This document shows, in pieces, positions 2,915-33,299 of a stretch of DNA of 40,107 nt. The number at the start of each line of letters is the position of its first letter. Position 1 is the first letter of the stretch. Source of the DNA: Verrucomicrobiaceae bacterium (GTDB taxonomy: Bacteria; Verrucomicrobiota; Verrucomicrobiia; Verrucomicrobiales; Akkermansiaceae); NCBI GenBank assembly GCA_029977225.1, contig JAPOLH010000003.1, positions 1 through 40,107 of the forward strand, given 5' to 3'. The position numbers and the translations under genes are program-made. The notes beneath the pieces were generated by a model that did no database searches, had not been told where the DNA came from, and saw only the letters and a program-made list of their open reading frames with translations.

Positions 2915-3053
2915 GCCCTCCAGGCGATTGAATAAAAAGGTGCGAAGCGCGACTGACTGGATTGACTCCGGCGTCCATCCCAGAGTGCGCCCTCCGGGCG
3001 ATTATGGTAAGAGGCGCAAAGCGCGCCTGACTGGATTCGAACCAGTGACCGTC
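2915..3053. repeat. Imperfect tandem repeat, 74-bp period, over the tRNA 3' end
   Basis: Positions 2915-2963 match 2989-3037 at 39 of 49 bases with a constant 74-bp offset. The second copy contains the last about 16 bases of the tRNA-Arg gene plus about 33 bases of its downstream flank; the first copy carries the same segment with a decayed acceptor end (GACTGACTGGATT against CCTGACTGGATT). Similarity stops at the tRNA T-loop. The offset equals the length of the tRNA gene. Confidence 0.7.
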
Positions 3054-3095
3054 CGCTTAGAAGGCGGATGCTCTATCCAACTGAGCTACAGGCGC
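3022..3095 (-). tRNA. tRNA-Arg (anticodon TCT)
   Basis: The minus strand folds into a full 74-nt cloverleaf: acceptor stem GCGCCTG pairing with CAGGCGC, D-arm GCTC/GAGC, anticodon stem TCCGC/GCGGA around loop CTTCTAA (anticodon TCT, reading AGA and AGG), and T-arm ACTGG/CCAGT with loop TTCGAAT. The discriminator base is G and no CCA is encoded. It is flanked on its 3' side by a degenerate copy of its own 3' end, noted separately. Confidence 0.97.
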
Positions 3096-3208
3096 TGCTG
3101 CGGGGTGATAGTTAGCAGTGGCGGCGGGTGATGTCAAAATCAGGTTCCGATGCCGTAGGTATTTGGTTTTTGGCTTTCAGGGCTGGGTTTGGCCGATTAG
3201 TTTGCGTC

Positions 3209-3712
3209 ATGCGCACGGCGGTTTACGCGGGATCATTTGACCCACCTACGAATGGTCATCTTTGGATGATCGAGCAGGGCTTGGCGATGTTTGATCGCTT
3301 GATCGTGGCGATTGGGACCAACACGGCGAAGCATTATTCGTTCAGCGTTGAGGAACGATTAGAGTTGCTCAAGGCGTCGACGCGTGAGAGCGAGCGTTTG
3401 AGCATCACGCATTTCGACAACCGTTATCTCGTCGACTATGCACGTGAGGTGGGTGCGAAGTATGTGTTGCGGGGGATTCGTTCGCCGCACGATTACGAGT
3501 ACGAGCGGGTGATGCGTCAGATCAATTCTGACATGGCGCCGGAGATCACGACGGTGTTTCTGATGCCGCCACGCGACATTGCGGAAGTTTCCTCGAACAT
3601 GATCAAGGGCCTGATCGGCCCAGTAGGATGGGAGGAAACGATCGGACGATATGTGCCGCAGCCGGTGTTAGAGAGCTTGGCCAAACATGGCGCGAGTAAG
3701 TTCGGAGGGTGA
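3209..3712 (+). CDS. coaD: Phosphopantetheine adenylyltransferase
   Basis: CoaD transfers AMP from ATP to 4'-phosphopantetheine, the fourth step of coenzyme A synthesis, in the cytoplasm. The 167-aa product has the N-terminal nucleotidyltransferase motif [12 protein letters not shown] (TxGH) at residues 5-16, the substrate-binding [12 protein letters not shown] segment near residue 90, and a C-terminal SSNMIK element in place of the usual ISST.VR. Length matches the family (about 160). The ORF track begins at 3128, but the ATG at 3209 places the start exactly before the conserved first strand ([10 protein letters not shown]). The gene is 40 bp upstream of the M42 peptidase and may be co-transcribed with it. 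Confidence 0.95.
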
Positions 3713-3752
3713 TGGGATTGGGCAATCGTCTTGTCAGGCCGGAGGAATTTGA

Positions 3753-4850
3753 TTGAATTCGGATATGACGAAAAGTGATCGCGAGTTTTTGTTTCATTTG
3801 TTGGAAACGCCTAGTCCTACGGGATTTGAAATGCCGGGACAGCGGGTGTGGGCGGAGTGGATCAAGGGTCATGCTCACAGTGTCGAGTGCGACGCGTACG
3901 GATCGACCTGGGCGAAGCTTGCGGGCAAGTCATCGAGGGTGGTGATGCTCGAGGCGCATGCCGACGAGATCGGGTACATGGTCAAGCACATCGACGATCG
4001 CGGGTATTTGCGCTTGGATCGGGTCGGTGGATCGGATGCGGCGACGGCGCGTGGCCGGCGGATCAATATTTTGGGCGACAAGGGCGAGGTGCCGGGGATC
4101 ATTGGCAACACGGCGATCCATTTGCGTCGCGATGATCATGGGTCGGAGAAAGCTCCGGCCGTGCATGACTTGTGGGTGGATGTGGGAGCCTCGAACGCGC
4201 AGGGCGTGGCCAAGCTTGGCATTCGCGTAGGGCATCCGGTCGTGTATCAGGACAGCCCGATGGAGTTGGCGAACAAGCGCATTGTCGGTCGAGCCTTGGA
4301 CAACAGGGTCGGTGGCTACATCATCGCGCAAGTGATGAAGCGCATCGCTGCGCACAAATCAAAGCCGGCATTCACGCTGGTATGTCTCAATGCGATTCAG
4401 GAAGAGATCGGCGGTCACGGAGCGATGATGGCGACTTATCGGTTGAAACCCGATCTCTGCGTTTGCCTTGATGTGACGCATGCGACCGACACGCCGGGCA
4501 TTGATCCCGCAAAGCATGGCAGTGTGAAACTCGGTGGTGGTCCCTCGCTAACGCACGGCACCGCGAATCATCCGTTGGTGGTCAAGCAGTTGCTTGAAGT
4601 CGCGAAGGGCAAGGACATCCCGATCCAGCACGAGGCCAGCAGCCGCTTTACCGGCACTGATACGGATAAAATTTTCCATTCGCGCGAGGGTATTCCGAGC
4701 GCCTTGGTTTCACTGCCATTGCGCTGCATGCATTCGGTCGTGGAGACCGCGCATTTGGACGACATCGAACACACGATCGAATTGCTCGCGGCCTTTGTCA
4801 TGTCGCTCAAGGCGGATGATGAGTTTCATCAGAGGTTGGGGGGAGGGTGA
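3753..4850 (+). CDS. M42 family metallo-aminopeptidase (TTG start)
   Basis: A 365-aa cytoplasmic dinuclear-metal aminopeptidase or deblocking peptidase of family M42 (FrvX/PepA-like). All metal and catalytic positions are visible: His and Asp in EAHADEIG, Asp in GRALDNRVGG, the Glu pair in QEEIGGHG, Asp in CLDVTHATD and the late His in RCMHSVVETAH. Length is typical. The start appears to be TTG at 3753: a strong GGAGG at 3741-3745 lies 7 nt upstream of it, whereas the next in-frame ATG (3765) would be 19 nt away. The substrate is not predictable; some family members are endoglucanase-annotated by mistake. Confidence 0.92.
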   Translation: MNSDMTKSDREFLFHLLETPSPTGFEMPGQRVWAEWIKGHAHSVECDAYGSTWAKLAGKSSRVVMLEAHADEIGYMVKHIDDRGYLRLDRVGGSDAATARGRRINILGDKGEVPGIIGNTAIHLRRDDHGSEKAPAVHDLWVDVGASNAQGVAKLGIRVGHPVVYQDSPMELANKRIVGRALDNRVGGYIIAQVMKRIAAHKSKPAFTLVCLNAIQEEIGGHGAMMATYRLKPDLCVCLDVTHATDTPGIDPAKHGSVKLGGGPSLTHGTANHPLVVKQLLEVAKGKDIPIQHEASSRFTGTDTDKIFHSREGIPSALVSLPLRCMHSVVETAHLDDIEHTIELLAAFVMSLKADDEFHQRLGGG

Positions 4851-4898
4851 ACATGGACATCCAACATCGAACATCCAACATTGAACATCGAATGTTGA
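4851..4898. repeat. Dispersed-type repeat (ACATC-AACAT units) with hairpin
   Basis: Directly after the M42 stop lies a run of near-identical 9-10 bp units (ACATCCAACATCGAACATCC and variants). It ends in a perfect 7-bp inverted repeat, CAACATT (4876-4882) and AATGTTG (4891-4897), with an 8-nt loop. Read as protein it gives the 'SNIQHRTSNIEHRM'-like string that I recall from many PVC and environmental genomes, where it is a non-coding dispersed repeat. That recognition is from memory. Confidence 0.6.
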
Positions 4899-4957
4899 AG
4901 AGGTGTAAAACTCTGTATCTCTTTCCCAATAACTCTTAACAGATAAGTATTAACTCT

Positions 4958-31563: not shown

Positions 31564-32565
31564 TTACGGTTTTGGTTGATTACCGATCATGCGTTCTGCG
31601 AGTGCCTTCAATTCCGCGCATGGGATAGCGAAAGTTTCCGCGCGATTGGCACGTGCGATATTCATGCCAATGCAATGGCCGTGGAGATCGATCACCGGGC
31701 CGCCCATGGTCTGGCTATTGCCCATGACCGAGTGCTGAATCACTCGGGGGAATCCGCTGCGTCGTTTTGAAAAATCACCGCTCATTTCATCATTGGTATT
31801 TGCGGAGATGCCGAAAAGCTCGGCTTTTGCCGTGAGGCGGACATCGGCATTGGATGTTTTTCCTTGGCGGCTGAAGCTGATGCGTACTTTGTCGCCGACT
31901 TTGTGTTCATCGAGTGCTGCGGACAGGTCGTCGATTTTTTGAAGTGGCTTATTGTCGACTGCCACAATCACATCGCCTGCCTTGAGTCCGGCTTCATCGG
32001 CTCCGCCGCCGGGTGTGATTTTTTCAATTTCGAGGCGATTTGAAGGGTTTTTGATCACGATGCCGAGAGCAAGTCCGCCACTGGCTTGGATTTCGCGCGG
32101 ATTGGCGCTGATCATGCCGATATTTGCGCGACGCTGGGTGCGTGAGGTTGCGCCATTCACCACGACCCATGTGCCTTGAAGGGGATCTGCCGTGCTGGTG
32201 TAATTGATAGGAACCAGATTGGTCGCATCGACCTTGAGCAAAGCAACATCCCACTGCTCGTCGGTGCTGATGACATCGACTTTATCGAAGCGCTGTTGAT
32301 CGATCGTGACGGTGAGATTTGTTTTTTCGCGCAGTTCGCTGGCCTTGGTAAGCACATGCCCATTGGTGGAAACCACTACGCCGTAGGCGATTTTCGCCAT
32401 GCCTGCGCTGATAACCGCGCTGGATTTCTGAAGCACTTGGCGTTGTGCCTCGAACGCGGCGAGAGTTGTTTTCCCTGTGATGCGCAAATCCGTCTCGAGA
32501 TTTTGTTGGCCATAAGTCGGGCCAAGCAACATTGCGCCGATGATCATGAGGCGGTGTGAGATCAT
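31564..32565 (-). CDS. PDZ-containing pseudoprotease (HtrA-like fold)
   Basis: A 333-aa exported protein related to trypsin/HtrA proteases but apparently inactive. A signal peptide (MISHRLMIIGAMLLGPTYG) is followed by the first barrel, where the catalytic His of the usual TNAH is Ser76 (VLTKASEL); Asp106 is kept (WDVALLKVD). A PDZ domain (about residues 168-245; ITPGGGADEAGLKAGDVIVA) is inserted before the end of the second barrel, which then resumes with FPRVIQHSVMGNSQTMGGP and VIDLHGHCIGMNIARANRAE. Met287 stands where the nucleophilic Ser precedes GGP. The start overlaps the stop of the intact protease gene by 4 bp. It may act as a scaffold or regulator for that protease; this is inference. 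Confidence 0.83.
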   Translation of the reverse strand: MISHRLMIIGAMLLGPTYGQQNLETDLRITGKTTLAAFEAQRQVLQKSSAVISAGMAKIAYGVVVSTNGHVLTKASELREKTNLTVTIDQQRFDKVDVISTDEQWDVALLKVDATNLVPINYTSTADPLQGTWVVVNGATSRTQRRANIGMISANPREIQASGGLALGIVIKNPSNRLEIEKITPGGGADEAGLKAGDVIVAVDNKPLQKIDDLSAALDEHKVGDKVRISFSRQGKTSNADVRLTAKAELFGISANTNDEMSGDFSKRRSGFPRVIQHSVMGNSQTMGGPVIDLHGHCIGMNIARANRAETFAIPCAELKALAERMIGNQPKP

Positions 32566-33299
32566 CGGTTTTTTTCTGAAGTTACGGGTTTCTTCGCGAA
32601 GGGCCCATCTCCGAGAAATTCGGAATTCAAGAGTGCGCCCCATTGTTTCTCAAAGACCCCGATCGGCACATGCATGTTCACGACCAGTTGCGGGCCAACG
32701 CGTGAGTGAATGGCAATCAGTTTGCCGGACAGGTCGAAGAGAGGCCCCCCCGAGTCGCCACCGATCAGAATGCAGTCGGATTGAAGCGATTGATCGGCGA
32801 TGCGCACGATGCGGCCTGGGCGCAGGACGAGTCCGCGTTTCTTGTCGAAGCCGCCCGAGTGACCAAGCGCAAAGACCCAGTCGCCGAGTGTGTATGATTC
32901 CGATTTGTCGATTGAGACAAAAGGCCATGTGCCGGGATCGGTGATTCGGGCCATCGCTGCGTCGGAATCCGAGTCGAGGCCGAGCGTGACGGCGTTCACG
33001 CGTTTGCCGTCTTGCATGATGACCTGCACTTTTTTTCCAGGTGCTCCGCTGACATGAGCGGCGGTGAGAATGAGGCCGTCGGGTGAGACGATTACGCCTG
33101 TGCCAGAGCCCTCAGCGATTTCGATGGCGACCGTAGCCGCGCTGGCTCGTGGCAGGGCGCTGGTGACGGCGTTTTGAATCGCGAGAAGATCCTCATGGTT
33201 TTCTGGCGCGGGTTTATCGTTGATCGGTGCACGATCGGCCATCGTGGCAGTGAGGCAAAGTGCCTGAGCGATGACGATTCGTGTGAGGTGGCGGATCAT
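32562..33299 (-). CDS. Secreted trypsin-like serine protease without PDZ domain
   Basis: A 245-aa exported S1-type protease. The N-terminus is a signal peptide (MIRHLTRIVIAQALCLTATMA). The catalytic triad is intact: His82 in GLILTAAHVSG, Asp113 in DSDSDAAMARI and Ser183 in IGGDSGGPLFDLSG. It resembles an HtrA protease domain but ends about 60 residues after the Ser with no PDZ domain, and instead a basic tail (FAKKPVTSEKNR). Start ATG 33299 is chosen for the signal peptide. Its stop overlaps the start of the PDZ pseudoprotease (ATGA), implying coupled production. It is probably periplasmic; the target is unknown. Confidence 0.9.
   Translation of the reverse strand: MIRHLTRIVIAQALCLTATMADRAPINDKPAPENHEDLLAIQNAVTSALPRASAATVAIEIAEGSGTGVIVSPDGLILTAAHVSGAPGKKVQVIMQDGKRVNAVTLGLDSDSDAAMARITDPGTWPFVSIDKSESYTLGDWVFALGHSGGFDKKRGLVLRPGRIVRIADQSLQSDCILIGGDSGGPLFDLSGKLIAIHSRVGPQLVVNMHVPIGVFEKQWGALLNSEFLGDGPFAKKPVTSEKNR

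Follow-up and report, generated by a model that had tools for sequence, protein, structure and literature searches.

A recurrent pair of active and catalytically dead HtrA-like proteins in the Verrucomicrobiales, a candidate two-component envelope protease

We found that two overlapping genes in the window (the whole 40,107-nucleotide stretch of DNA that was analyzed), one encoding an HtrA-like serine protease (gene 1) and the other a trypsin-fold protein that lacks the catalytic His and Ser (gene 2), represent a pair that is not a product of chance and that recurs across the whole order Verrucomicrobiales. The dead family to which gene 2 belongs is real and old. We propose, from sequence comparisons and with about an even chance of being right, that the pair forms a two-component, HtrA-derived envelope protease in which the dead subunit joins and regulates the catalytic one. 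The dead protein is probably an integral regulator of its active partner, as a sensor or assembly subunit.

The gene pair and the position of its PDZ domains

A preliminary description of this DNA presented the pair as two exported trypsin-fold proteins whose reading frames share an ATGA, and both frames were found as described (Table 1), each product having by inspection an N-terminal hydrophobic, signal-like segment. The first protein had been credited with a complete catalytic triad and no PDZ domain, and its translation and its match to Trypsin_2 agree: the triad residues lie in the motifs TAAH82, Asp113 and GGDS183GGP, the Trypsin_2 profile is covered completely (positions 1-144 of 144, 91 bits, 1.4e-25), and a domain profile search of the window gene 1 gave no PDZ. 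H82, D113 and S183 are invariant among the active partners in alignment A4. Single-chain structure predictions, suggested in the same description, were run for both proteins. The AlphaFold2 model of gene 1 (pLDDT 83.8, pTM 0.83) was matched by Foldseek to the protease domains of HhoA, DegS and HtrA1, and against the curated Do-family model TIGR02037 gene 1 scored 85 bits, below the cut-off of 416. Gene 1 can be assigned to an HtrA-like family that stands apart from canonical HtrA in the protease-domain tree.

Table 1. Features of the gene pair in the window
Feature	Position	Strand	Details
Gene 1, HtrA-like serine protease	32562..33299	-	245 aa; triad His82/Asp113/Ser183 intact; PDZ absent; predicted export
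Gene 2, pseudoprotease	31564..32565	-	333 aa; catalytic His replaced by Ser76 and nucleophilic Ser by Met287; Asp106 retained; predicted export
ATGA overlap, gene 1 stop / gene 2 start	32562..32565	-	Translations of both ORFs
PDZ of gene 2, residues 166-244	31834..32070	-	PDZ_2 match 6.3e-15; inserted at L3, between residues ~157 and ~266
TKASELR, gene 2 residues 73-79	32329..32349	-	Stands in place of TAAHV, the motif of the catalytic His; K74 and S76 almost invariant among family members
Short gene 1 tail VTSEKNR, scar of PDZ loss	32562..32600	-	L133 has ~232 bp more here

The translation of gene 2 likewise confirmed all three active-site states claimed for it, with TKAS76E in place of TAAH, D106 retained and M287 within QTMGGP. 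The PDZ domain of gene 2 had been placed inside the second barrel rather than after it, and two lines of evidence agree with that placement. Firstly, Trypsin_2 matches gene 2 in two stretches (2e-13), the better of which covers profile positions 3-108, with PDZ_2 between them; excision of the PDZ restores a single continuous Trypsin_2 match (profile 3-144) of 62.1 bits, whereas the separate halves score 39.7 and 14.9 bits. Secondly, we located the insertion site with a profile of 30 dead-family members aligned to PDB chains. Profile positions 56-163 align to residues 93-201 of a DegP-like chain and positions 276-331 to residues 205-265, with the PDZ part aligning to residues 288-366, and the insertion point falls between residues ~201 and 205 of that chain and between ~164 and 171 of a DegQ chain. 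The sensor loop L3 comprises residues 176-189 in DegS (PMC11642142). In gene 2 the PDZ takes the place of the loop that runs from "...SAKGR" to "FIQTD" and therefore sits at L3.

The AlphaFold2 model of gene 2 (pLDDT 76.9, pTM 0.63) gives a predicted strand order of barrel 2 strands, PDZ and then three further strands. A PDZ following a complete barrel had been named beforehand as counter-evidence and was checked for; the PDZ precedes completion of the barrel. The segment after the PDZ is modeled with moderate confidence, with blocks of pLDDT 50-61, and Foldseek TM-scores of gene 2 against HtrAs are low (~0.4), as is expected with the PDZ in a different chain order.

Among the active partners, the absence of a PDZ in the window is the exception. 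When their tails were searched with a PDZ profile, 88 of the 100 unfused active partners and 11 of the 15 fused ones proved to have the domain downstream of the barrel; the 12 unfused partners that lack it come from this species, from one small-genome genus of the same family and from one genus of family f2. Gene 1 of the closest relative, L133, shares 88% identity with that of the window at the protein level and 86% at the DNA level, the latter within the matching stretch. Like the other active partners in A4, it carries a PDZ at its C-terminus, and the window gene 1 lacks ~232 bp exactly where L133 encodes that domain. The window gene 1 thus appears to have lost its PDZ through a recent deletion, as read in one assembly. 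Because most active partners carry a PDZ and the loss in the window is recent, the division that gives catalysis to one chain and PDZ sensing to the other, which the preliminary description took for the arrangement of the system, is a derived state and not the system's design. As a general rule, that division is ruled out by the 88 of 100 partners, by L133 and by a second pair in the same genome. Since most active partners keep their own PDZ, those that do so may sense substrate independently of the dead partner.

The second pair is diverged from the first and occupies positions 341-2541 of locus L002 (contig C106 of G000). Its active gene keeps the PDZ, and its dead gene has the motif TKWSE and an inserted PDZ. 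The opposite-strand genes adjoining this pair resemble ExbB/ExbD.

Distribution, history and conservation of the pair

How widely does the pair occur? Among 190 genomes of the order Verrucomicrobiales, the dead protein was found in 138 and the active protein in 138; both are present in 136, neither in 50, the dead protein only in two and the active protein only in two, and all four discordant genomes are fragmented assemblies. The co-occurrence has a Fisher p of 7e-41 over the 190 genomes, a value uncorrected for species relatedness. Lack of adjacency had been named as grounds for giving up the coupled pair, and adjacency is in fact kept: 85 of the 86 unfused dead loci have an active gene immediately upstream in the same orientation. 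The lone exception is G025, whose dead gene has no adjoining active gene. The ATG 4-bp overlap is common to 17 of these 85 gene pairs. Within the phylum (289 genomes searched), no dead protein was found outside this order except in two genomes of family f38. Named relatives belong to Akkermansiaceae, Luteolibacter, Roseibacillus and a Prosthecobacter bin. A scan of contigs with a narrower alignment (A2) kept 80 loci, 14 of them members of this family and the others canonical HtrA.

The conservation of gene order does not extend beyond the pair. The window neighbors (fmt, adk and others) are common only to the 86% identical relative, and other clades have different neighbors, e.g., a photolyase or a methyltransferase-like gene. 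We considered a conserved operon as a functional clue and rejected it, as the neighbors differ between clades.

In the protease-domain tree, a single branch (SH-aLRT 100) sets off each of the two families, active and dead, and the canonical HtrAs are placed between the two. An origin of the dead gene as a recent duplicate of its active partner was rejected on the basis of these separate clades and the canonical HtrAs that lie between them. Both families divide into matching A and B types, and the matching split indicates that the pair was duplicated as a unit. In genus g2, whose genomes of 2.2-3.5 Mb resemble those of Akkermansia in size, both pairs occur in some species, whereas the active and dead genes have been lost together from at least 12 others; the g2 species that lack the two genes constitute a natural knockout set. 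The type A pairs of two loci titled "Akkermansia muciniphila" (L134 and L137) group with other Akkermansiaceae and not with g2, and these titles may be mis-assigned.

Conservation within the dead family was counted over 109 aligned homologs. None of the 109 has the catalytic His, and so the homologs with an intact triad that would have spoken against a dead family were not found. A Ser at the nucleophile site occurs only in the fused chain L222. Whether the changes at Ser76 and Met287 are conserved had been posed as a question, and the answer differs for the two positions: S76 is nearly fixed, along with K74, D106, R305 and R308, whereas the site of Met287 varies freely. A new signature, TKxSE...GGP...NIARxxR, is nearly fixed in the family, and the elements TKxSE, QHD and NIARxxR provide a nearly fixed polar signature at the old active site. 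That the dead gene is a pseudogene or a decaying copy is excluded by these nearly fixed new motifs and by conservation across the order. A Cys occupies the former nucleophile position in most fused chains (type B L071, L074, L087 and L213-L217) and in 18 of 95 unfused dead proteins, and the catalytic His is never present with it.

The residues that serve regulation in other HtrAs have been kept to differing degrees. By alignment and residue spacing, we matched R157, Q277 and S153 of gene 2 to DegP R187, Q200 and S183, and these are retained in 108, 104 and 94 of the 109 dead homologs, respectively. At the position of DegP Thr176, Thr is not kept among the 109 homologs, and the residue is mostly Arg or Pro. 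The carboxylate loop of the PDZ, xLG[IV], is also conserved, with G168 in 107 of 109.

Natural fusions and the possible role of the dead protein

Adjacency and co-occurrence of the unfused pairs could reflect co-regulation alone. A different kind of evidence is provided by 15 chains in which the active and dead proteins are fused (L049, L071, L074, L075, L087, L213-L217 and L220-L224). The order is active-then-dead in 14 of the 15 and dead-then-active in one (L222 of G397), and the dead half of the fused relatives has its PDZ inside the barrel. On the tree of dead domains, the fused chains form an eight-row clade, a placement of L223 and L224 within unfused type B, a placement of L049 in an otherwise unfused genus, and a group in f38 with both orders, from which we read about five separate fusion events. 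The automatic tree minimum was three changes, lower than this estimate because the tool compared labeled groups alone. In seven fused chains scanned for hydropathy, no internal hydrophobic segment was found between the halves, and therefore both halves should face the same compartment. The fusions argue for a two-subunit complex of the gene 1 and gene 2 products. For the unfused pairs we infer the contact itself, the direction of control, the ligand and a periplasmic site of action.

Two of the fused chains have features of their own. L222, at 3019-4933 of the reverse strand, has its dead half first, without the GGP motif (TESTSPI in its place), followed by an active half with a PDZ. The fusion linker of L131 / L221 (G264) contains two near-identical repeats (DRVLAGSKFNP...LAVDPETAKQLGL).

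How might a dead subunit regulate a live one? In HtrA proteases, a relay connects the PDZ, through L3, with the LD' loop of the neighboring subunit, and it uses Arg178 in DegS and Thr176, Ser183, Arg187 and Gln200 in DegP (PMC11642142). In mixed trimers of HTRA1, a catalytically dead subunit rescues an impaired one, and contacts between L3 and LD span protomers (PMC11252331). In the reading we favor, the gene 1 product would be the catalytic subunit and the gene 2 product a dedicated dead subunit, physically joined to it and regulating it. Most probably, a peptide or misfolded C-terminus would bind the PDZ of the dead subunit, the ligand-bound PDZ would shift L3 of the same subunit, and the L3 arginine R157 (equivalent to DegP R187) would then order, or release, the active site of the live neighbor. 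In its most specific form, which we put forward tentatively as one possibility, the complex would be a lineage-wide heteromeric HtrA, its allostery apportioned between the subunits, in which a permanently dead protomer with an L3-grafted PDZ acts as a one-way switch, turning on the catalytic protomer across an interface into which the old cleft has been rebuilt.

The main rival, which we judge unlikely, gives the dead protein the dedicated task of inhibiting, assembling or anchoring the protease, which it would cap or hold with no ligand-sensing activation. The coupling and the fusions fit this explanation too, there is a precedent in Deg7, whose inactive protease domain mediates trimerization (PMC3473262), and the conserved charged residues of the old cleft (K74, E77, R305 and R308) could form an interface. 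Scaffolding alone, however, accounts poorly for the retention of a PDZ with its carboxylate loop together with the relay arginine of L3. The nearly fixed polar signature of the former active site is also what would be expected if the dead protein had been repurposed for ligand binding in a remodeled cleft, with co-inheritance reflecting a common pathway rather than a common enzyme and the protease acting on or beside it; MamO, which binds metal (PMC4794232), would be a precedent, but some five independent fusions in both orders point to a joint machine, and we regard this explanation as improbable. Lastly, that these are two ordinary HtrA paralogs in one operon, without physical cooperation and with an incidental PDZ arrangement in the window, agrees with the recent PDZ loss in the active gene and with the other HtrA-type trypsin genes in the same genome, yet it is very improbable given that both families are ancient clades separate from canonical HtrA and that co-loss, co-duplication and repeated fusion are unexpected of unconnected paralogs.

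Comparison with known systems

The preliminary description suggested that a coupled active/inactive pair was undescribed, which is too strong, as the MamE/MamO pair and the single-chain Deg7 were already known. Like genes 1 and 2, MamE and MamO are a trypsin-fold active/inactive pair encoded together; MamE proteolysis requires MamO but not the active site of MamO, and such pairing arose repeatedly among magnetotactic MamE/MamO-type proteins (PMC4794232). MamO differs from gene 2 in that it retains the His and Asp, has Thr for Ser, binds metal and acts in magnetite formation; an inserted PDZ, such as that of gene 2, is not described for MamO in the text consulted (PMC4794232). Against the curated MamE and MamO families, genes 1 and 2 score 34-49 bits, the cut-offs being 800. 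The pair is a family distinct from MamE/MamO, found in our searches only in one order of Verrucomicrobiota and one further family.

Two other systems resemble parts of the pair. The serine protease core of SpoIVB (S55) reportedly accommodates an inserted portion of a PDZ (PMC12502668). SpoIVB, however, is an active sporulation protease in which a PDZ beta strand enters the core, rather than a whole PDZ at L3, and a dead partner is not mentioned in the text consulted (PMC12502668). In plant Deg7, an active and a dead HtrA domain share one chain (PMC3473262), as in the fused forms here. Deg7 differs in being eukaryotic and always one chain, with the order PD-PDZ-PDZ-PDia-PDZ-PDZ, in which the PDZs follow the protease domains and are not in a barrel; the window pair lacks the Deg7-type arrangement of one chain with each domain followed by a PDZ, its genes being separate. 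In yeast Nma111/Ynm3, active and degenerate HtrA domains also occur in a single chain. The literature searched, most of it outside subscription journals, contained no account of this Verrucomicrobiota pair or of a dead HtrA whose PDZ lies in L3.

A further likeness is to DegP, DegQ, DegS and HtrA, which have the Trypsin_2 fold and PDZ and are the best PDB matches of both proteins. Gene 2 keeps the L3 arginine and the Gln200-type residue of DegP-type HtrAs, but unlike DegP, DegQ and DegS it has no catalytic His or Ser and carries its PDZ in L3 rather than after the barrel. Gene 1 differs from the same proteins in its GGDSGGP motif and, in the window, in having no PDZ. HtrA activation is generally described as a signal that leaves the PDZ, passes through L3 and reaches the LD loop of the next subunit, and homo-oligomers do not allow the sensor to be separated from the catalyst. 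Here sensor and catalyst have apparently been split into two genes, each of which can be mutated alone, in the order to which the Akkermansia family belongs. Should this reading be correct, the pair would provide a natural system for tests of trans-activation and a clear role for a bacterial pseudoprotease, and would explain many genes now recognized merely as "trypsin-like peptidase" and "PDZ domain".
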